This document shows, one piece after another, positions 14,987-39,708 of a stretch of 64,000 nucleotides of DNA. A program made the translations under genes and the position numbers. A model generated the notes under the pieces. It was not told where the DNA came from and made no database searches. It saw only the letters and a program-made list of their open reading frames with translations. This DNA comes from Acidobacteriota bacterium. Its GTDB lineage: Bacteria; Acidobacteriota; Terriglobia; Bryobacterales; UBA6623. Numbering within the stretch: the first letter of the stretch is position 1; every line of letters starts with the position of its first letter. The stretch lies in the NCBI GenBank assembly GCA_016125275.1, contig WGMB01000002.1:317231-381230 (forward strand). The letters are read 5' to 3'.

Positions 14987-15083
14987 CGGGTATGAGCGTA
15001 GGGGAACCGCCGCGGCTTGGCAACCGGAGCCAGGGGACGTGAAAAACAGTCTTTTGAAACCAGTAACAAAGTCGCGCCGGCCG

Positions 15084-15092
15084 TGTTAGAAT
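15084..15092 (+). promoter_or_regulatory. Extended -10 promoter (TGTTAGAAT) for the SBBP-repeat protein
   Basis: TG-T-TAGAAT matches the extended -10 form TGnTANNNT. A start at about 15099 would give a leader of ~65 bases before ATG 15164. No good -35 element is seen, as is usual for extended -10 promoters. Confidence 0.4.
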
Positions 15093-15163
15093 TCACCCGC
15101 TCGCACCTCGGGTCCCCCCTCGAAGTAGCCTTGCAGTCTTATGTGCTCCTCGGGTCGCGACCA

Positions 15164-18100
15164 ATGCCTAACAACCTGAAACTGTCGCCTTTCAGCGTCC
15201 TTCTCGTCCTTCCGCTTGCGCTCTCGACTGGTCTTCAGGCCGCGCCCACCGGCGCGAAGACGCAGTTCGCCACCGCGCTTTCTCGAGGACCAATGGGAGG
15301 GTCTCCCTTCAACTCGCCTGGACCCTACCGTCTACCGGTGTTCTACGAAGACCGATCCACAGGGCAGGAAGCGCGGTTTCTTGCCAACAGGATTTCTCAT
15401 CAGGTCGCACTCTTGCCCGGCGAGGCGCGCATTGTCGTATTCGATGGTACGGGGCGGCGCAGCATGATCCGGGCGAAATTCGTCGACGCCGATATCGCGG
15501 CCCCAGCAGGTATGGATTTGCTACCCACCAAGATTCACCAGATTCTGGGCAACGATCCGACGACGTGGTCGGCAAACGGACGAGCCTACGAGGAGATCCG
15601 GTATCGGAACCTCTATCAAGGAATCAATCTTGTGTTCGGAGCTGAAGACGCGCACGTCGCCTACCGAGTCGAGCTAGCCCCTGGCGCATCGATCGGGCAG
15701 ATGCAATGGCGCTACGAAGGGCACGAATCAATCGAGATCACCCCCCAGGGTGAGATCGCCATGGAAACAGCCGGAGGGCGGTTGACCTGGGATCGCCCCT
15801 CCGCTTATTGGCTGGACGGCGACCAACGGCGCTCGGTCGCCGTTTCCTATCGCCTGGAGGGTGATGTCGTCGGGTTCCGCGTCGCCGACTATCCGCGGGA
15901 TCGCCCCCTGATCATTGACCCGCGCTTGACGGTTGTGAGCTACCTCGGCGGCAGCGCGAATGACACGGCCGCCGCGAGCAGCTCTTTCGTCGTGGCGCCG
16001 AGCGGAGACATCCTGGTCGCTCTCTGGACAGGCTCGGTCGACCTCCAGGCGACAGCGGGCGCTTTGTCGTCTTCCTCTTCAGGCGTCACCGATATCTTCT
16101 TGGTCCGGCTCGATCCAACCGCCTCGATCGTTCGATTCGCCACCTATCTGGGAGGAAGCGCCGACGATCTCAGCAACTCCCTCGCATTGACGGTCGCAGA
16201 AGAACCGGTCATGACGGGCCAGACCGTGTCCTCCAATTTCCCCACCACGGGAGGCTCTCTCCGGACAACCGGCCCCCGTGGTACTTCCGACGCAATCGTG
16301 GCGCGATTGTCCGCGGACGGCTCGGCCTTGTTGGCGGGAACCTACTTGGGAGGGTTTGGTGCGGAGATCGGAACGGGATTGACGATCCTCCCCGACGGCA
16401 AGATTTTCGCGGTGGGAATCACGGATTCGACCTCAGGCTTCCCAGTGACCGGCGGCGCCCGACAAACGAGCTTCGGCGGAGGGTCGACGGACAACTACCT
16501 GGTAGCTCTGAACGGCAGCCTGCAGCTCGTCTATGGCAGTTATTTGGGAGGCAATGGAGAAGAGTACTCCAACACCGGGGTACTCACCGGCGGCACTAGC
16601 TTGTATGGGCCCCAAGCTACCAACGATCGAGCCGGGAACGTCACCATCGGAGGACTGACTACGTCTACGAACTTCCCCACAACCCTCGGCGCCTACTCGA
16701 CCAGCATCCAAGGTGACTTCGACGGGTTCGTAGTTCGCTTACGAACGGGTGACTTCTTTCTGTTAGGCTCCACCCTGCTCGGAGGCACGAACTTCGACGC
16801 CGTGACGGGGGTCGCGGTTGATGAGCTTGGGAGGATCGTGACGGTGGGCGACACTGCGTCCGCCAACTTTCCAACCTTGGTCTCTGCGCCGCAACCGAGC
16901 TACCAAGGCGGGCTCGTCGACGCCTTTGCCTCGAGCTTGACGACGGATTTGACCACCCTGCGTTTCAGCACGTTCGTAGGCGGCAGCTCGTCGGATCAGG
17001 CCGGCGTCCGTGTAGCCGTGGTTGGCGACCTAATTGAGTTGGCCGGCCACACCCAGTCCTCCAACCTTCCCGTCTCCCCGGATGCCGCCAAACTCATGAT
17101 CTCGGGGGCCACAGACGCCTACCTCGCTATCATTGACACCCGCGCATCATCGTTCAACTACATGACCTACCTGGGCGCCGCGGCGGACGACGTAGCCATC
17201 TCCGTCGTCCGCGATTTGCATGGCAGCCTCGTCGTCGTGGGGGCGACCAACTCGACAAGCTTGCCGACAACATCGGGCGTCATTCAGCCGACGTATGGCG
17301 GCGGGGCGGCGGACGCCTTCCTGGCGAAGTTTCAGACTGGCGTCCCCAAACGGGTCGGCGCTTACAACAGCAGCAACATCTGGCTCCTCGACGTGGACGG
17401 CGATGGGCAGTTCACCGGAGGCGTGGATCGCTCGTTCCCGTTCGGATTCGCGGGCGCCAAGACCTTCGTTGCAGACTTCAATGGCGACGGCCGCGATGAG
17501 TTGGCCCTCTACAACCAGGGCTTTTGGTTCATCGACTACAACGGCGACACGGTTTTCGACGGAGGGGTCAAGGACAAGCTGTTCGCCTTCGGCTTTGCCG
17601 GCGCCACGCCGGTCATCGGCGACTGGAATGGCGATGGCAAAGTGGAGGTCGGCGTCTACAACTTGGGCTTCTGGTTCCTCGACTACAACGGCGACTTTGT
17701 CTTCAACGGCGCGCCAACGGACAAGCAGTATGCCTATGGCTTCGCCGGGGTGACGCCCTATGTGGGCGATTGGAACGGCGACGGCAAAGACAATGCAGGC
17801 TTCTACAAGGACGGGTTCTGGTTCCTCGACGCGAACGGCAACGAGCTCTTCGATGGTTCGCCCGTCGATGTCATCCTGGGCCTCGGCGGCCCCGGAGTGA
17901 CTCCCGTCGTGGGCGATTGGGACGGGGATGGGGCCGATTCCGTCGGCTTCTACAACCTCGGCTTTTGGTTCCTGGACTACGACGGCAATGCGGCTTGGGA
18001 CGGGGGCGTGAAGGACAAGGTCTATCCCTTCGGGTACGCCGGCGCGACGCCGTTGGTGGGCGACTGGAACGGCGACGGGCGGGTCGACGTGGGCGTTTTC

Positions 18101-18217
18101 GACAATGGCGCTTGGTTTCTAGACGCCAACGGGAGCGCGACCTACGATGGCTCCCCCAAGGACTCGATCTTCTTGTGGGGCGGGTCCGGCAGTACGCCGG
18201 TCATCGGTTCCTGGTAG
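15164..18217 (+). CDS. Large secreted SBBP-repeat protein with C-terminal calcium-loop-like repeats
   Basis: 1017 residues from ATG 15164. A signal peptide is present (VLLVLPLALSTGLQAAP). Residues ~30-250 match the N-terminal domain common to SBBP proteins (ARFLANRISHQVALLPGEAR; VFGAEDAHVAYRVELAPGAS). From ~255 to ~725 there are repeated SBBP propeller units (SYLGGSANDTAA, TYLGGSADDLSN, YLGGNGEEYS, FVGGSSSDQAG, YLGAAADDVAIS). The last ~290 residues form six units of about 49 residues, each with GDWNGDG and GFWFLDYNGD. It is probably a surface or secreted binding protein. Third positions look less GC-rich than in neighbouring genes. Start options further upstream lack a signal peptide. Confidence 0.85.
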   Translation: MPNNLKLSPFSVLLVLPLALSTGLQAAPTGAKTQFATALSRGPMGGSPFNSPGPYRLPVFYEDRSTGQEARFLANRISHQVALLPGEARIVVFDGTGRRSMIRAKFVDADIAAPAGMDLLPTKIHQILGNDPTTWSANGRAYEEIRYRNLYQGINLVFGAEDAHVAYRVELAPGASIGQMQWRYEGHESIEITPQGEIAMETAGGRLTWDRPSAYWLDGDQRRSVAVSYRLEGDVVGFRVADYPRDRPLIIDPRLTVVSYLGGSANDTAAASSSFVVAPSGDILVALWTGSVDLQATAGALSSSSSGVTDIFLVRLDPTASIVRFATYLGGSADDLSNSLALTVAEEPVMTGQTVSSNFPTTGGSLRTTGPRGTSDAIVARLSADGSALLAGTYLGGFGAEIGTGLTILPDGKIFAVGITDSTSGFPVTGGARQTSFGGGSTDNYLVALNGSLQLVYGSYLGGNGEEYSNTGVLTGGTSLYGPQATNDRAGNVTIGGLTTSTNFPTTLGAYSTSIQGDFDGFVVRLRTGDFFLLGSTLLGGTNFDAVTGVAVDELGRIVTVGDTASANFPTLVSAPQPSYQGGLVDAFASSLTTDLTTLRFSTFVGGSSSDQAGVRVAVVGDLIELAGHTQSSNLPVSPDAAKLMISGATDAYLAIIDTRASSFNYMTYLGAAADDVAISVVRDLHGSLVVVGATNSTSLPTTSGVIQPTYGGGAADAFLAKFQTGVPKRVGAYNSSNIWLLDVDGDGQFTGGVDRSFPFGFAGAKTFVADFNGDGRDELALYNQGFWFIDYNGDTVFDGGVKDKLFAFGFAGATPVIGDWNGDGKVEVGVYNLGFWFLDYNGDFVFNGAPTDKQYAYGFAGVTPYVGDWNGDGKDNAGFYKDGFWFLDANGNELFDGSPVDVILGLGGPGVTPVVGDWDGDGADSVGFYNLGFWFLDYDGNAAWDGGVKDKVYPFGYAGATPLVGDWNGDGRVDVGVFDNGAWFLDANGSATYDGSPKDSIFLWGGSGSTPVIGSW
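17350..18217 (+). repeat. Six in-frame repeats of ~147 bp in the 3' end of the SBBP gene
   Basis: Each unit encodes a GDWNGDGK-like loop, a short strand, GFWFLDYNGD, and a GFAGATP-like end. The Asp/Asn/Gly loops resemble calcium-binding FG-GAP/VCBS loops. The last unit ends at the stop codon. Units differ at many synonymous and some coding sites, so the array is not recent. Confidence 0.75.
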
Positions 18218-32256: not shown

Positions 32257-32856
32257 ATGAAGAATAAATTGGCAACCTTTGCTCTGTCCGCCTTGTTGGC
32301 GGCCCCTGTCTGGGCGGTCAACGTCGATCAAGGCGTGGAGCAGTTCAAAAAGCACCAGTACACGCAGGCCGAGAGCTCGTTGGCCGGAACGCCGGACGAC
32401 GACGTTCGCGGGCAGCTCACCCTGGCGCACACCCTGGCTGCGAACAAGAAGTTCAATGAAGCCAACGCCGCGGTGAGCAAGGCTCAGGCCGCCGGCGCCG
32501 GCGAAGCGCAGATCAAGACGGCCAAGGCGGCCGTTCTGATCGGCCAGCGCGACGTGGCCGGCGCGCAAAAGCTGGTGAACGAAGCGATCGCGGCGGACCC
32601 GAACTGCGCCGAAGCCTACAGCTATCGCGGCCAGATCCGGATCAACAACAAGGACTTCCAGGGCGCCGCGGCGGACCTGGAGAAGGCCATCGAGCTGGAC
32701 CCCTCCCAGCCCTACAACCACTACTACGCGGGCATGGCCTACAACGGCCTCAAGCGCCCCGACAAGATGGTGGAGCATTTGCAGACTTTCGTGAAAATGG
32801 CGCCCGATTCACCGGACGCGGACAAGGTGCAGTCGCTGCTGCGAGCCTTCCGCTAG
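32257..32856 (+). CDS. Secreted TPR protein
   Basis: 199 residues with a signal peptide (KNKLATFALSALLAAPVWA). Three to four tetratricopeptide repeats fill the rest, the clearest at residues ~110-180 (AEAYSYRGQIRINNKDFQGA and the next repeat starting YNHYYAGMAYNGLKRPDK). GAGGAG precedes ATG 32257. It is probably a periplasmic scaffold. Its position just upstream of the TamB-Omp85 gene invites a link, but a hairpin lies between them. Confidence 0.8.
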   Translation: MKNKLATFALSALLAAPVWAVNVDQGVEQFKKHQYTQAESSLAGTPDDDVRGQLTLAHTLAANKKFNEANAAVSKAQAAGAGEAQIKTAKAAVLIGQRDVAGAQKLVNEAIAADPNCAEAYSYRGQIRINNKDFQGAAADLEKAIELDPSQPYNHYYAGMAYNGLKRPDKMVEHLQTFVKMAPDSPDADKVQSLLRAFR

Positions 32857-32907: not shown

Positions 32908-35900
32908 ATGGCAGCCATCGCATCGGTCGTCGTTTTCGTCATACTGGCGCTCTCCGCCGGTATGTTGCACGTGCCCGTCGTGCGTCAGTTCGTCCTGCAA
33001 AAAGGGGAACAGTACCTAGCGGAAAACCAGAAGATGGACGTCCAGGCCGAGCGCTTGGACTACAATCTTTTCGGTCTGAAATCCACCCTCCAAAACGTCA
33101 CAATCCGGACGACCGATCCGCCGGACGCGCCGGTCTTTTTCCATGCCGACAAGGTCTTCGTGGACCTGAACATGTCGGCGTTGCTACGCGGCAAGCTCGA
33201 GGTGGAGGAGGCCCGCATCGAAGGCGGACGGATCTCCTGGATCATCGACGAGGCCGGCGTGTCGAACATGCCGAAGCCGCCGCCGGCCAAGGAGCCCGCC
33301 CCCGAGAGCAACCCCAACGCGCCCCTGCCGCTGCTGGTGCAACTGTTCGAGGCCGCCGGCCCCTCCATCCACTACGAGAATCGCCAATCCGGCGACTCCG
33401 TAGACTTGCCGCAGTGGACGATGAGCATCCACGGCGATCGCCTGCCGCAGAAGCACGCCGTCGATTTCGCCATCGGGCGGCCCGGCTCGGTGGTTTACGA
33501 AGGGCGTTCGGCGCCGCTCGAGCAGTTGCAGGCCGGACTCGACCTGCTGGCCGGCGAGCTGCGCGTGCGGCGCTTCCAGGCGCGCTCGGGCGAGGCCTCG
33601 GTGAGCGTCACCGGCGCGATCCGGGATTTCGCCGATCCCGTCGCCGATCTGACCGCGGTCGTCAGCGGCGAGATCGCGCCGCTGATCGAGCTGGCGAATC
33701 TCGACACGCCGGCCAGCGGCCGCTTGGAGCTGAGCGCCAAGATTACTGACAAGCTCTCCGCCCCGCACGTGGACGCGACGATCTCGGCGACCAACCTGGC
33801 CTACCAGGACCTGCGCGAGATGACGCTGCAAGCGGAGGCGGCCTGGGCGGCCGGCGACGACCGCGCCCGCATCGCGTCGTTCTCCCTGCAGGCCCCGTTC
33901 GGACAGGTGGCCGGCGACGCCGATCTAGCCCTGTCGGAGACCGCCGGGGAGAGCCGCACGAACCTGCAGCTCACCCGCGTCGACCTAGGGCGGCTGAGCC
34001 GTCCGTTCGACCTGCCGATGCGGCCCGCGGCCCGGGCCACCGGCTCGGTCCAGGCCTCTTGGCCGGGGCTGGACTTCCAAGCCGCCGACGCCAAGGGACA
34101 GTTGCGCCTGGCCGCCACGCGGAGCGCGCCGGCCAAGGGCGTTCTGCCGTTGTCCGGCTCCGTGAACCTGACCAAGACGCGCGATCGGCTGACCGCGGCG
34201 CTCACCAACGTCGACACGCTCGGCGTGCGAGCCGGCGGCAACGTCGTGCTGCGGGATCTGTCCGGCCTCGACGGCGCTCTCCAGATCCAGATCGCCGAGC
34301 TGGGCGACACGGTCGCCGCGGCGGACCTTCTGCTCGACTCTCCGCCGGGCGAATCGGTGGCGCCGACCGCTTTGGCCGGACCGCTGAGCGCTTCGATCGG
34401 CCTGGGCGGCACGATGGACGCCCCGCGCCTGGCCATCCAGGCCAACAGTGACAGCCTGAAGGCGGGCGAGATCGAGAACGTGGCCTTCCGCTTCGACGGC
34501 GCCTACGCCCCCACCGAGGCCGTGATCGACGCCTTGGAGCTGACCTGGAAGCAGCAGAGCCTCAGCGTAGCCGGACGCGTCGGCCTGGAAGGCGACAGCC
34601 CGGCGCTCGATCTGCACGTGAACGCCCCCCGCATCGTGCTGGCGGACGCCTTGGCGGCCTTCGAGCGCGACGAGCCGGTGACCGGCGAGCTGAGCTTGAC
34701 CGCCGACGTGACCGGAACCGTCGAGCGGCCCACCGGCCGAGTGGATGCGCAGGCGACGGATCTGATCGCCTACAACGAGCCGCTCGGCTCGATGCAACTG
34801 CGCGGCAGCCTGGACCAAGGCGTGGCGCTGATCGAGGAGTTGCTGCTGCAGAAGCCCGACGGCGGCACGTTGCGCGCCAGCGGCTCCTACGGCCTGGAAG
34901 ACGGCCGCTACACCGTTCAGGCCGAAGGCAGCGGCCTGACCCTGGAGAAGCTAACGCTGCCCTCGGGCGAGAGCGTGCGGGGCCGTGTGGACTTGTCCGC
35001 CAACGGCGAGGGGACCGTCGAGGCGCCGCAGTTGACAGCCAAGCTAGGCGCGCATGAGCTGTTCGTGGGCGAAACGGAAGTCGGCGAGGTCGAGGCGAAC
35101 GCGGATGTCGCCGACGGCCGCGCCAAGCTGCAAGTCTCCGCGCCGCGCTTCAAGAGCGTGCTCGAAGCCGACTCCGCGCTGGCCGCGCCGCACCAGAGCT
35201 CGCTACGCCTGGCAGTGGACGCCTTCGACTTGGCGACTCTGAACATTCAGGGCCGCGACGACAAGCCCGTCCAAGGCCTGATTGACGGCGTGATCACCGC
35301 CCAAGGCCCTCTCGACCAGCCCGAGAGCTTCACGGTCGAAGCCGATCTGAATCAGCTCAAGGCTTCGACCGGGGGCGTGGAGGTTCGCAACGAAGGCCCC
35401 CTGCGGGCTTCCTATCGCAACCGCAACATCTTCGTGGATCACGCCGAGCTGATCTCGGGCCGCTCGAAGCTCTCGCTCGACGGTTCACTGCCCCTGACCG
35501 CCTCTGACGGCCAAGGCGCTCTGACCGTGGCCGGAGCAATCAACCTGGAAGCCGTGCCGGCGCTGCTCGGGCTGACCCTCGAAGAGGCCTTCGTGCTGGG
35601 CATCCTCAACATCAACGGCACGGTCGGCGGCAGCTTGGAGAGCCTGAGGCCGCAGCTCGACGCGTTGCTCGAAGACGGCGTGGTCTTCACGCCCGGCACG
35701 ATCAAGCCCGTCACCAACATCCAGATGCACCTGACGGCCGACCAGCAGCGCATCGAGCTGGCCAGCCTGACGGCCGACTATGGCCACGGCACGGTGTCTG
35801 CCAACGGCGGCGTCCCCATGGCCCTGGTAGTCGAGAAGGGTCTGCCGGTGGAGGTGCTGGCGCAGAAGCAGCCGGCGCGCTTCGAGGCCGCCATCGAAGG

Positions 35901-38900
35901 CATTGACCTCGAAGAGCTGGAAGTGATCCCGGACGGCGGCGGCTTCATCGGCGGCAAGCTGCAAGCCGAGGCCCCCACGCTCAATCCCGAGGACGTCACG
36001 GGTTCGCTGGAGCTCGATCGCTTGGAGCTGTTCGTACGCGACCTGTCGTTGCAGCAGGCCGAGCCGATCCGTTTGTCTTTCTCCAAGGGGCTCCTCGAGA
36101 TCGCTTCGTTCCGCATCTCCGGCCCGGAGACCCAGATCGAGGCGTCCGGCAAGGCCGACCTGTTCGGCAGCGGGGCCCTCGATGTGGCCGTCAACGGTCA
36201 CGCCGACGCCGGCGTGGTGGGCTACTTGGTCGAGGATCTGCGCATGAGCGGCCCGGTCGTCGTCGATCTGCGGGCCGAGGGGACGATCAAGGAGCCCAAG
36301 CTGCAAGGCCGCTTCACGCTCACCGACGGCAACTTGGCTCTCGAGAGCCCTCGCTTTGACGCCGACCGCCTGCAGATCGCGCTCAACCTGGAAGGCGAGC
36401 GGCTGGAAATCGAGACGATGCAGGCGGCGCTCAACGGAGGAACCTTCAGCGCCAAGGGCGGCCTGAGCCTGGCCGACGGCATCCGCGACGTGGATGTGAG
36501 CGTCTCGGCCAACGAGATCTTCCTGGACTTCCCCGAGGGCCTGCGGACGCTTTCGACCGCCAATCTGCGCTTCCACGACGCGCCGGACAACCTGCTGCGC
36601 CTGGACGGCTCGGTAAAGGTGGAGGACGGCTCGTTCCGCGACCGCGTGGACATCGGCGCGGACATTTTGGAGCTGCTGGGCTCCGACGGTATGAGCTTTG
36701 CGCAGGAGCCGGACCCTTTGCTGGCGCGCATCCGCTACGGCGTCGAGATCGACACGGTCAACCCGATCCTGGTGGACAACAATCTCGCCCGCATGGAAGC
36801 CAACCTCGACCTGCGGCTGGTAGGCAGCTACTACCGCCCGTCGCTGCTGGGACGCGCCGTGCTGGAGGAAGGCGGCGAGGTCTATCTGGCAGAGAACAAC
36901 TACGTCATCGAGACCGGCGTCATCGACTTCACCAACGAGACCCGGATTCGCCCCTCCCTGAATCTGCGCGCGCGGACGCAGGTCGCCGGGCACGACATCA
37001 CCATGCTCGTGACCGGCTCGGCCGACGATCTCGAGACGCAGTTCACCTCCGACACAGGCCTGTCAGAGCCGGACATCATCTCGCTGCTGCTCACCGGGCG
37101 CACGCTCGAAGAGGCGCAGGAATCGGGGCTGAACATCGCCCGCGAGCAGGCCCTGTCATACCTGACGGGCAGCCTCGGCGGACGCCTCGGGCGCGCGGCC
37201 GAAGAGAGCCTGGGCCTGAGCCGCGTGCGGGTGGAGCCGAACCTGATCTCGTCGGAGGGAGACCCGAGCGCGCGCTTGACCATCGGGCAGGACATCACCC
37301 GGCGGCTGAATCTGATCTACTCGATGAACCTCACCAACTCGGGCGATCAGATCTTCGTCACGGAGTACGACGTGACGCGCCGCTTCAACCTGCGGGCGGT
37401 CAAGCAGAGCGATAACACCTACCGCTTCGACTTCAAGCACGACATCCGCTGGGGTCTGGAGAACGAGGAGGACCGCGGCCGCAAGTCGGGCCCGAAGATC
37501 GAGATCGCCGCACTCGACTTCCAAGGCGACCCGAAGCTGCCTGAAGAGGAGCTGCGCAAGGAAGTCGGACTGAAGGTCGGCGACCGCTACGACTTCTTCA
37601 AGACCCGCAAGAAAACCGACAAGCTGCAGGCGATGTACCAGGATCGCGATCGGCTGGAATCGCGCGTACGGCTGCGCCGCCAGCAGGATGACGCCAAGCA
37701 GACCGTCGACCTGCACTTCCAGATCGACGCCGGCCCGCGAATTGAGTTCGCCTTCTCGCCGGTGGAGCCTCCGGGCGGCGTGCGGAAGAAGGTTCGCCAA
37801 GCCTGGAGCTTGGGCGTGTTCGAGGCCCAGCGCATCGACGACGCCGTCGACGCCCTGCAGCGCTGGCTCTACGCCGACGGCTACCTCGAGCCCGAGATCG
37901 ACCATCAGGTGGAGATCCCCGAGGAGGATCGCCGCATCGTCCGCTTCATCGTCCGCCCCGGCGTCAAGTACACCGACGTGAAGCTCGTCTTCGAAGGCAA
38001 CAAGGGCTTGACCGACGAGCAGCTCGAGCTGGCCCTCGAACGCACCGATCTGCGCAAGTCCCTGCGCGCCGATCCGCGCGACGTGGCCGAGACGCTGACT
38101 CGCTACTACTACCAGGAAGGCTGGCTGACGGCCAAGGTCGAGCGGCCGGAGTTCGACCTGGAACCCGACACGGGCTTCGGACGCGTGGTCATCAAGGTCG
38201 ACGAGGGCAAGCAGTTCCAGATCGGGGAGCTCACCTTCAACGGGGCCTCCGCGGTGACCGAAGAGGAGCTGCGCTCCGCCGTCACGCCGGAAGAGGGCCG
38301 CGTCTATACACCGCAGTACTTGCAGGAAGCCATCGAGAACGTCGAGGCCGTCTACTGGGCGAAGGGCTACAACGACGTGCTGGTGAACTTCCGCCTGACG
38401 CGCCGGGTCGAGGACGCCCGGGTCGACATCGGATTCGAGCTGACCGAGAACCAGCAGGACGTGGTGAAGGAGATCGCCGTCGAGGGCAACGAGCAGGTCA
38501 GCGCCAAGCTCATCCGCAAACGCCTGACCACCAAGGAAGGCGACCTGCTCATCACCGAGAACAACGACAAGTCGCGCCGCAGGCTCTATGACACCGGGGC
38601 CTTCTCGCTGGTGGACTTGCAGGCCCAACCGCTCGACCAGTCCCTTTCGCCGCAGGGCCAGAACTCCCTGCGGCTGCTGGCGAAGGTCCGCGAGGTCTCG
38701 CCCTTCCGGGTGCGCTACGGCGGATTCTTTGACACGGACCGCGGCCCGGGCATCATCACGGACTTCGTCAACCGCAACACTCTCGGCTCGGCGCGGGTGC
38801 TGGGCTTCCGAGGCCGCTATGACAATGACTTCCGCGAGGCGCGCGGCTACTTCAGCCAGCCCTTGCTGATGAATTTTCCGGTCACCACCACCAGCGCCTT

Positions 38901-39708
38901 GTTCCGCAGCCGCGAGCTGCGCCAGACCTTCGTAACCGACCGGACCGGCATGTCGGTGCAGCAGGAGATCCAGATCAGCCGCAAGATGATCTTCCAGTAC
39001 GGCTACCGGTTCGAGCGGACGCACACGTTCGACCGCGATCCGGACGCCTTCATCCCGCTGGACATCTCCTTCAACCTGGCGCCGCTGACCTCGACCCTGA
39101 CCTTCGACAGCCGCGACAACATCCTGGACGCGACGCACGGCCAGTTCTTCTCCCACGGCTTCGAGTACGCCCCTTCGACGCTGGGCTCGGACGTGCGGTA
39201 CATCAAGTATTTTGGGCAGTACTTCCGCTACATGCCGTTCTTCCGGCCCAAGGAGACGCCCTTCGACCGCAAGCCCAAGCGTCCCCGGCTGATCTACGCC
39301 ACCGGCGTGCGGGTCGGTTTGGCGAACGGCCTCGGCGGGCAGGACATCGTGCCCAGCGAGCGCTTCTTCGCCGGCGGCGGCACCACCATCCGAGGCTTTC
39401 AACAGGACCGCGTGGGTCCGCAGGACTTCTTCGGCGACCCGACCGGCGGCGACTCGGTATTCATCCTCAACAACGAGGCGCGCTTCCCCCTGGTGAGCAT
39501 CTTCGAGGGCGTCGGCTTCGTGGACGTGGGCAACGTCTATGACAAGTGGTCGGACTTCGACCCCACCTCGCTGCGCAGCACGGCCGGCGTGGGCCTCCGC
39601 GTGCGGACGCCGTTCTTCCTGCTGCGGATGGACTACGGCATGAAGCTCGACCGCAAGGAAGGCGAGTCCTCGGGAGCGTTCTTCTTTTCGATCGGGCAAG
39701 CTTTCTGA
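32908..39708 (+). CDS. TamB-like protein fused to a five-POTRA Omp85 barrel (TamB-BamA/TamA fusion)
   Basis: 2266 residues in one uninterrupted frame. An N-terminal membrane anchor (residues ~3-20, VVVFVILALSAGML) begins an AsmA/TamB-type protein. The beta-rich body runs to about 1515 and includes the DUF490 end (ITMLVTGSADDLETQFTSDT; EPDIISLLLTGRTLEEA). From ~1530 there are five POTRA domains (about 1532-1610, 1611-1690, 1690-1770, 1770-1850, 1850-1930; e.g. YTDVKLVFEGNKGLTDEQLE). A 16-strand Omp85 barrel (~1930-2266) with the conserved loop-6 motif ERFFAGGGTTIRGFQQDR follows. Separate TamA and TamB proteins form the TAM export machine; here both are one chain spanning inner to outer membrane. 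ATG 32908 lacks a ribosome site. Confidence 0.93.
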   Translation: MAAIASVVVFVILALSAGMLHVPVVRQFVLQKGEQYLAENQKMDVQAERLDYNLFGLKSTLQNVTIRTTDPPDAPVFFHADKVFVDLNMSALLRGKLEVEEARIEGGRISWIIDEAGVSNMPKPPPAKEPAPESNPNAPLPLLVQLFEAAGPSIHYENRQSGDSVDLPQWTMSIHGDRLPQKHAVDFAIGRPGSVVYEGRSAPLEQLQAGLDLLAGELRVRRFQARSGEASVSVTGAIRDFADPVADLTAVVSGEIAPLIELANLDTPASGRLELSAKITDKLSAPHVDATISATNLAYQDLREMTLQAEAAWAAGDDRARIASFSLQAPFGQVAGDADLALSETAGESRTNLQLTRVDLGRLSRPFDLPMRPAARATGSVQASWPGLDFQAADAKGQLRLAATRSAPAKGVLPLSGSVNLTKTRDRLTAALTNVDTLGVRAGGNVVLRDLSGLDGALQIQIAELGDTVAAADLLLDSPPGESVAPTALAGPLSASIGLGGTMDAPRLAIQANSDSLKAGEIENVAFRFDGAYAPTEAVIDALELTWKQQSLSVAGRVGLEGDSPALDLHVNAPRIVLADALAAFERDEPVTGELSLTADVTGTVERPTGRVDAQATDLIAYNEPLGSMQLRGSLDQGVALIEELLLQKPDGGTLRASGSYGLEDGRYTVQAEGSGLTLEKLTLPSGESVRGRVDLSANGEGTVEAPQLTAKLGAHELFVGETEVGEVEANADVADGRAKLQVSAPRFKSVLEADSALAAPHQSSLRLAVDAFDLATLNIQGRDDKPVQGLIDGVITAQGPLDQPESFTVEADLNQLKASTGGVEVRNEGPLRASYRNRNIFVDHAELISGRSKLSLDGSLPLTASDGQGALTVAGAINLEAVPALLGLTLEEAFVLGILNINGTVGGSLESLRPQLDALLEDGVVFTPGTIKPVTNIQMHLTADQQRIELASLTADYGHGTVSANGGVPMALVVEKGLPVEVLAQKQPARFEAAIEGIDLEELEVIPDGGGFIGGKLQAEAPTLNPEDVTGSLELDRLELFVRDLSLQQAEPIRLSFSKGLLEIASFRISGPETQIEASGKADLFGSGALDVAVNGHADAGVVGYLVEDLRMSGPVVVDLRAEGTIKEPKLQGRFTLTDGNLALESPRFDADRLQIALNLEGERLEIETMQAALNGGTFSAKGGLSLADGIRDVDVSVSANEIFLDFPEGLRTLSTANLRFHDAPDNLLRLDGSVKVEDGSFRDRVDIGADILELLGSDGMSFAQEPDPLLARIRYGVEIDTVNPILVDNNLARMEANLDLRLVGSYYRPSLLGRAVLEEGGEVYLAENNYVIETGVIDFTNETRIRPSLNLRARTQVAGHDITMLVTGSADDLETQFTSDTGLSEPDIISLLLTGRTLEEAQESGLNIAREQALSYLTGSLGGRLGRAAEESLGLSRVRVEPNLISSEGDPSARLTIGQDITRRLNLIYSMNLTNSGDQIFVTEYDVTRRFNLRAVKQSDNTYRFDFKHDIRWGLENEEDRGRKSGPKIEIAALDFQGDPKLPEEELRKEVGLKVGDRYDFFKTRKKTDKLQAMYQDRDRLESRVRLRRQQDDAKQTVDLHFQIDAGPRIEFAFSPVEPPGGVRKKVRQAWSLGVFEAQRIDDAVDALQRWLYADGYLEPEIDHQVEIPEEDRRIVRFIVRPGVKYTDVKLVFEGNKGLTDEQLELALERTDLRKSLRADPRDVAETLTRYYYQEGWLTAKVERPEFDLEPDTGFGRVVIKVDEGKQFQIGELTFNGASAVTEEELRSAVTPEEGRVYTPQYLQEAIENVEAVYWAKGYNDVLVNFRLTRRVEDARVDIGFELTENQQDVVKEIAVEGNEQVSAKLIRKRLTTKEGDLLITENNDKSRRRLYDTGAFSLVDLQAQPLDQSLSPQGQNSLRLLAKVREVSPFRVRYGGFFDTDRGPGIITDFVNRNTLGSARVLGFRGRYDNDFREARGYFSQPLLMNFPVTTTSALFRSRELRQTFVTDRTGMSVQQEIQISRKMIFQYGYRFERTHTFDRDPDAFIPLDISFNLAPLTSTLTFDSRDNILDATHGQFFSHGFEYAPSTLGSDVRYIKYFGQYFRYMPFFRPKETPFDRKPKRPRLIYATGVRVGLANGLGGQDIVPSERFFAGGGTTIRGFQQDRVGPQDFFGDPTGGDSVFILNNEARFPLVSIFEGVGFVDVGNVYDKWSDFDPTSLRSTAGVGLRVRTPFFLLRMDYGMKLDRKEGESSGAFFFSIGQAF

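Follow-up and report, generated by a model that had tools for sequence, protein, structure and literature searches.

A TamB-Omp85 fusion in Acidobacteriota as a candidate single-polypeptide form of TAM

Introduction

Can TAM, an actively studied phospholipid and OMP pathway, be made as one polypeptide? The question is raised by a gene in the 64,000-nucleotide stretch of Acidobacteriota DNA analysed here (the window), in which a reading of the sequence alone had noticed a TamB-like protein running straight into an outer-membrane barrel. In the parts of the literature examined, the TAMs described consist of two pieces. For the E. coli TamAB complex, passages of PMC12800296 report a groove with lipid-like density, 1:1 stoichiometry and contacts of POTRA1-3 with TamB; in one state, the last TamB strand (beta6) pairs with TamA beta1 and the TamB strands fold inside the lumen, and the authors propose different jobs for the hybrid and non-hybrid states. 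Based on sequence comparisons and structure models, we favour, with a probability of roughly 0.68, the reading that the fusion is TAM made as a single, trans-envelope polypeptide, whose function we infer to be lipid delivery and/or OMP insertion.

Results

A single reading frame encodes a TamB body, five POTRAs and an Omp85 barrel

The fusion gene starts with ATG and runs for 2266 codons without internal stops. Pfam, NCBIfam and the structure models agree with the sequence-only reading of its product, namely an N-terminal anchor, a TamB body, five POTRAs and an Omp85 barrel with the motif TTIRGF. The features are as follows:

32908..39708, + strand: single-chain TamB-Omp85 fusion gene, 2266 aa (open frame, Pfam, NCBIfam)
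32911..32964, + strand: predicted N-terminal inner-membrane anchor helix, residues 2-19 (model, hydropathy)
33034..37062, + strand: AsmA/TamB beta-groove (taco) body, residues 43-1385 (Pfam DUF748 at the N-terminus, models, hydropathy alternation)
36415..37434, + strand: Pfam TamB (DUF490) domain, residues 1170-1509 (Pfam)
37066..37212, + strand: helices before the TamB C-terminal strands, residues 1387-1435 (model)
37222..37452, + strand: six-strand TamB C-terminal (pseudosubstrate) segment, residues 1439-1515 (model, conservation, ends of separate TamBs)
37456..37500, + strand: 15-residue linker, residues 1517-1531 (alignment rows)
37501..37728, + strand: POTRA1, residues 1532-1607 (Pfam, model)
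37738..37956, + strand: POTRA2, residues 1611-1683 (Pfam, model)
37975..38202, + strand: POTRA3, residues 1690-1765 (Pfam, model)
38218..38445, + strand: POTRA4, residues 1771-1846 (Pfam, model)
38455..38694, + strand: POTRA5, residues 1850-1929 (Pfam, model)
38704..39705, + strand: 16-strand Omp85 barrel, residues 1933-2266 (Pfam, NCBIfam, model, structure alignment)
39391..39399, + strand: RGF motif, residues 2162-2164 (invariant in 19 fused sequences)

All Pfam matches were above their cut-offs: DUF748 at residues 5-207 (57.8 bits against 50), TamB (PF04357, DUF490) at residues 1170-1509 (113.4 against 22.4), POTRA in five stretches (131.9 against 21.3) and Omp85 (PF01103) at residues 1957-2266 (150.6 against 24). 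The protein thus belongs to the TamB family, with a TamB domain that closes an AsmA-like body, and to the Omp85 superfamily, with POTRAs and a 16-strand barrel that carries the RGF motif. This motif, which we take to be the loop 6 marker of the Omp85 barrel, lies within the string GGGTTIRGF, and R2162, G2163 and F2164 are invariant across 19 fused sequences. With five POTRAs and 308 bits against a cut-off of 297.15, the fusion also qualifies for the BamA equivalog family TIGR03303. It is neither a TamA (NF047950, 96.5 bits against 625) nor a TamL (80.5 bits against 400), and no MCE family appears among its Pfam matches at E<=0.1, so that it is not of the MlaD type. In agreement with this, BamA chains are at the top of its PDB sequence matches and TamA is lower. 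With its five POTRAs, the POTRA-barrel half is thus BamA-like and does not resemble the three-POTRA TamA. Elsewhere in the window, positions 15017-18217 code for a 1066-aa protein with DUF7948.

Models predict a beta-groove followed by a BamA-type arm and barrel

We modelled the protein with AlphaFold in two overlapping parts, residues 1-1160 (31 sequences, pLDDT 86.5, pTM 0.48) and 1067-2266 (39 sequences, pLDDT 77.4, pTM 0.57); with these pTM values and sequence numbers, the models speak for the fold of the parts and not for the arrangement between domains. Reading of the DSSP output gave helices at residues 2-19 and 23-40, after which beta strands predominate as far as residue ~1385. The C-terminal model, which had been proposed as a check of the fusion, contains the end of the groove, three helices, six strands, five beta-alpha-alpha-beta-beta repeats corresponding to the POTRAs and 16 barrel strands, again counted from DSSP. 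The first helix and its hydropathy correspond to a TamB-type N-terminal signal anchor, the membrane location being a prediction, and a hydrophobic window (11 residues, mean hydropathy at least 1.8) was found in all 32 alignment rows having an N-terminus.

When the C-terminal model was searched with Foldseek, E. coli BAM chains ranked first. VIA-align placed model residues 465-1200 onto E. coli BamA 24-808 with a Z score of 21.9 and an rmsd of 13.2 over 680 residues, a value indicating that the relative placing of the domains differs. As modelled, the POTRA arm is a full BamA-type arm. The N-terminal model gave only weak Foldseek matches (ApoB, LptD and Vps13), to which we attach no evidential weight. 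Along the 57 predicted strands of the N-terminal body, the face-to-face alternation of hydropathy was 2.55, compared with a mean of 1.53 after shuffling, and none of 2000 shuffles reached it. As expected, this fits a groove with one oily face; any amphipathic sheet would show the same.

The fusion is widespread in Acidobacteriota

Related genomes were searched for the same fusion. Of the 257 genomes of the order, 256 show some match, to the TamB or Omp85 parts, and by the rows listed 41 carry the fused family (counting the window's genome, and G248 through a barrel fragment only). The TamB-to-barrel frame is at least 2117 aa long in 30 of these 41 carriers, including the four-contig genomes G022 and G028; in the other 11 it is cut by contig ends, split or truncated. 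A class sample of 399 genomes, which overlaps the order set, listed six more fused genomes, all from one other family; one of them, G304, has a stop inside the fused frame. The phylum sample of 297 genomes gave matches at E<=1e-80 in 64, and in 55 of these the frame exceeds 2000 aa.

In many of the phylum carriers, the alignment to the window's protein is confined to about residues 1000-2266 and leaves out the first ~1000. We therefore ran Pfam on eight divergent members. In all eight, a single frame holds TamB, POTRA and Omp85 in succession, each over its cut-off; an AsmA-like N-terminal match (DUF748 or YhdP) was likewise present in all eight, in one of them over cut-off. Since the same architecture recurs in relatives at 26-45% identity, chance or assembly error, including the assembly error at the junction that the sequence-only reading had named as a danger, is excluded for the family.

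A scan of genome contigs with two exact peptide patterns, which miss divergent members, returned 56 loci, some from the same assembly and all titled as Acidobacteria, Acidobacteriota or a group belonging to this phylum. An earlier scan of genome contigs with a single fusion protein as query had given no match. Plasmid records gave 26 weak matches, none of which covers 80% of the query, and the 12 rows listed match the Omp85 half only.

The family also includes unusual copies. Two fused genes are present in each of G691, G712, G716 and G797, and G691 and G712 additionally have a separate TamB frame. The only TamB found in G649 is a longer fused frame of 2779 aa (locus L136). Split, truncated or stopped copies occur in the relatives G007, G043, G240, G304 and G709. 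The copy in G007, from the window's own family, is down to residues ~8-331 and 1399-2266 in two frames (L040/L103), being either a decayed copy or an assembly fault, and the named twin of G043 (L098) contains unknown bases.

TamB and POTRA1 are joined by a linker of near-constant length

The DUF490 body had been placed as ending near residue 1515 and leading directly into the first POTRA. Both statements hold: the TamB domain, last strand included, extends to about residue 1515, and 15 linker residues follow before POTRA1 on the same chain. We aligned the junction in 42 rows, the window and 41 named loci. The linker measures 13-17 residues in 41 of the 42 rows and 32 in the remaining one, and is estimated at 13-29 in 21 further fusions, most from divergent lineages. 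Conservation per residue over the 42 rows is highest in the six-strand segment (3.18 bits), followed by the barrel (2.97), and lowest in the linker (1.59). Near-constant length, drifting sequence and the top score of the preceding strands together indicate that the linker can vary in sequence but hardly in length, and that the strands are the most constrained part. By eye, 17 separate TamBs of related genomes stop about where the fused chain enters the linker.

A second gene with its own signal peptide hidden at the junction was ruled out, since none of the 42 rows has a hydrophobic, signal-peptide-like stretch there. With one frame and no signal peptide at the junction, the protein is not encoded as a two-protein TAM. 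None of the matches listed shows relatives with an intergenic stop and start at about residue 1520. The nearest case is G097, where a contig break falls inside the linker region and the two contigs (C232 and C137) end at residues 1519 and 1545.

The linker could alternatively be the site of a cut. The fusion would then be a polyprotein that is translated whole and cleaved after export, so that the working machine would be an ordinary two-piece TAM with 1:1 synthesis enforced. The linker is poorly conserved, often charged and of low confidence in the model, which would suit a protease site, and a two-piece product would conform to the TAMs described. Set against this are the narrow range of linker lengths and the absence of a common cleavage motif visible by eye in the alignment. 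Moreover, a cut would be unneeded if POTRA1 sits beside the end of TamB, as suggested by the contact between E. coli TamA POTRA1 and TamB in passages of PMC12800296. We therefore regard cleavage as unlikely, and retain the single uncut chain as our preferred reading.

The fusion can be the only TamB of a genome and does not replace BamA

It had been suggested that the fusion could replace TamA and perhaps BamA. The window's genome contains six Omp85 places and two TamB places. Its canonical BamA is a separate gene (1012 aa, 417 bits to TIGR03303), and a canonical BamA was found in 40 of 41 genomes searched at E<=1e-150, counting this one. The genome also has an operon (L043:5527-13288) of BamA2 (1032 aa), a SurA_N-like protein (218 aa) and TamB (1337 aa), joined by overlapping stop and start codons, in which the SurA-like gene lies between both TAM parts. 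Two further places (L045:5523-8409 and L046:6740-9687) hold an Omp85 protein of 415 or 441 aa, without POTRA matches, beside a secreted-looking protein of about 545 aa with a similar start. At L047:7425-12198, a 572-aa Omp85 protein adjoins a 1013-aa gene that, by inspection, is a candidate for its secreted two-partner substrate.

To count separate genes, we considered 35 fused genomes across the phylum with at least 95% completeness. The window's genome aside, 41 reach this level, the six not included being G564, G646, G705, G709, G714 and G716. The fused frame is the only TamB found in 18 of the 35, among them the one-contig genome G595. Sixteen hold another TamB frame, in 15 cases frames or sets of 1052-1557 aa and in one (G560) a frame of 1855 aa; in the last genome, G574, the frame is cut by a contig end. 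G766 had been a candidate for a genome with two fusions, which was ruled out: although the second TamB frame is long when measured between stops, it encodes a lone TamB of 1384 aa, and G766 is therefore counted among the genomes with a separate TamB. A BamA-like gene separate from the fusion locus was found in 34 of the 35 genomes, the match being partial in divergent genomes, and none was found in G801 at the limit used. Thus, the fusion can be the sole TAM and does not replace BamA. Replacement of TamA and TamB depends on the genome, and replacement of BamA is not supported, since canonical BamA is a separate clade and a separate gene and the fusion is not the canonical BamA of its genome. 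As the window's genome keeps a separate TamB/BamA2 and BamA, the fusion may be accessory there. Judging from these gene contents, it appears to be an extra TAM in some genomes and the only TAM in others.

Trees of the two halves were computed quickly, without bootstrap and with long branches, from 75 Omp85 rows (rooted on E. coli TamA) and 57 TamB rows (one truncated row having been dropped beforehand); they include 39 of the fused genes found, 14 of 30 fetched canonical BamAs and an outgroup from E. coli only. The Omp85 rows include 20 from separate pairs, and for three of these (L144, L161 and L163) the retrieved stretch contains no TamB. In the Omp85 tree, the fused proteins cluster with BamA2 and are separated from canonical BamA (98 SH-aLRT). 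The TamB tree gives groups within the fusions similar to those of the Omp85 tree, which suggests a shared history of both halves. The free trees of both halves put five divergent fusions (L134-L138) beside the separate pair; trees constrained to keep all fusions together were not rejected by the AU test (p 0.607 for TamB, 0.181 for Omp85). Two separate origins are thus not established, and a single ancient origin would be compatible with these trees. A recent fusion of the local BamA-TamB operon by stop loss is not favoured, because the gene order is opposite, with TamB first in the fusion, and because the halves of the pair form their own clades.

A gene for a TPR protein often adjoins the fusion

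A TPR gene of 199 codons ends 51 bases upstream of the fusion:

32257..32856, + strand: 199-aa TPR protein with a Sec-type signal peptide by inspection, probable partner of the fusion (TPR families, adjacency in fused loci)

Among 56 named fused loci, 39 extend 700 bases or more upstream of the first fused frame, and in 29 of these 39 the gene adjoins the fusion on the same strand. A profile built from the 29 named copies and the window's copy found a match beside 10 of 21 other fused loci not used in building it, in one case on the same strand and upstream of the fusion, in the other nine on the opposite strand and downstream of it (E 1e-23 or better, gaps of 3-843 bases between frames). A weaker match near L134, in an 840-aa frame, was kept out of the count. 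In 50 control loci (437 kb), the profile matched twice. That the association survives reorientation suggests a partnership; 10 of the 39 named and 11 of the 21 other loci showed no TPR gene next to the fusion, so that linkage in cis is not obligatory. We consider the periplasmic TPR protein a probable accessory of the fusion. BamD is a TPR protein, and it is our guess, by analogy, that the neighbour might play a BamD-like role on the POTRAs. Borrelia BamD, an ortholog of a TPR lipoprotein, docks on POTRA4-5 according to passages of PMC13382580.

These neighbourhoods bear on another reading, in which the fusion is mainly a dedicated, BamA-like port for the secretion or OMP insertion of certain substrates and the TamB part acts not as a lipid conduit but as an anchor or chaperone. 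The POTRA-barrel half does exceed the BamA equivalog cut-off (308 vs 297 bits) and aligns to BamA along all five POTRAs, and TamAB also aids the insertion of Ag43 in passages of PMC12800296. Yet, apart from the TPR gene, no family of neighbours or cargo is common to more than two of the regions compared (the window and 14 others), the fused Omp85 groups with BamA2 instead of canonical BamA, and hydropathy alternates strongly along the beta body. On this evidence a substrate-specific port appears quite improbable, and we continue with the single-chain TAM.

Discussion

What is known is that the parts of TAM occur as two chains; what appears to be new, as judged from the gene, is their joining in one. 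We did not find a TamB-Omp85 fusion described in the open-access papers searched; database annotators may know the architecture. The words 'fused' and 'fusion' are absent from the main text of PMC4494059, PMC11014939, PMC12045153 and PMC13382580, and 'fused' is absent from PMC12800296 and PMC10665443. The only fusion mentioned in PMC4104836 is BamA-BamB-like, the matches in PMC11361582 are tag fusions, and none of 12 of the 15 fusion passages in PMC4827864 concerns TamB.

The two-piece proteobacterial TAM shares with the fusion the inner-membrane anchor, beta-groove, TamB domain, C-terminal strands, POTRA arm and Omp85 barrel. In contrast, the fusion is one chain, has five BamA-type POTRAs rather than three, and its TamB C-terminus leads into POTRA1. 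The acidobacterial BamA-TamB operon (Heinz et al, 2015, PMC4494059, in part), which is also present in the window's genome, comes from the same phylum and has related TamB and Omp85 halves; however, it consists of two genes, BamA and then TamB, whereas the fusion has TamB and then Omp85 in one frame. The same source, in passages, gives the order TamB-BamA for Borrelia. In the Borrelia BAM-TAM, TamB works with a five-POTRA BamA and its C-terminus is modelled to complete the barrel (passages of PMC13382580), but with two chains instead of one. TamL-TamB of Bacteroidota is likewise a TAM variant outside Proteobacteria, although TamL is a separate lipoprotein (passages of PMC12045153).

How one chain comes to be held in both membranes is a real problem of biogenesis, as the sequence-only reading had pointed out, and elongated MlaD of Veillonella parvula is a proposed precedent. 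Passages of PMC10665443 describe a single polypeptide whose N-terminus lies in the inner membrane and whose C-terminal part is a barrel in the outer membrane, proposed to form a trans-envelope lipid bridge; unlike the fusion, it has an MCE domain, a helical stalk and a modelled 10-strand barrel and hexamer, and lacks TamB, POTRA and Omp85 parts.

In the single-chain TAM that we propose, the N-terminus would lie in the inner membrane and the barrel in the outer membrane, with the chain spanning the periplasm. The groove would take phospholipid, and perhaps help unfolded OMPs too, to the lateral gate of the barrel, as proposed for the two-piece TamAB, and BamA would remain separate. Being the most conserved segment, the TamB C-terminal strands probably still engage an Omp85 barrel. 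They would be tethered to POTRA1 by about 15 residues, leaving the last strand without a free end. With such a tether, a hybrid barrel might form in cis with a curled POTRA arm or in trans, or might be replaced by a fixed, non-hybrid state.

The possibility that the gene is an artefact of assembly or frame, or a young fusion that is non-functional and decaying, is refuted for the family as a whole and extremely improbable, since, despite the broken copies in five relatives, the long TamB-to-barrel frame persists in 30 of the 41 carriers in the order (the four-contig genomes G022 and G028 among them), the one-contig G595 has the fusion as its only TamB, and the barrel and C-terminal strands are strongly conserved.

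We tentatively put forward the possibility that the single-chain form of TAM is old in Acidobacteriota and perhaps ancestral there, with the BamA2-SurA-like-TamB operon derived from it or standing beside it. The TamB C-terminal strands, clamped between groove and POTRA1, would then work by a geometry for which a free TamB C-terminus has no need, completing a barrel in cis through a curled POTRA arm or, within an oligomer, in trans, aided by the dedicated TPR protein. If this were true, a complete conduit from the inner to the outer membrane would be present in one gene.

The fusion suggests that one covalent chain can comprise both the inner-membrane conduit and the outer-membrane barrel, and that such a chain can be the sole TamB of a genome, as found in 18 of the 35 examined. 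A single-chain TAM would matter for stoichiometry, for the question of how proteins anchored in both membranes are made and for ideas about where TAM came from, and a natural fusion that limits the reach of the TamB C-terminus offers a ready experiment on the jobs of TAM's two states.
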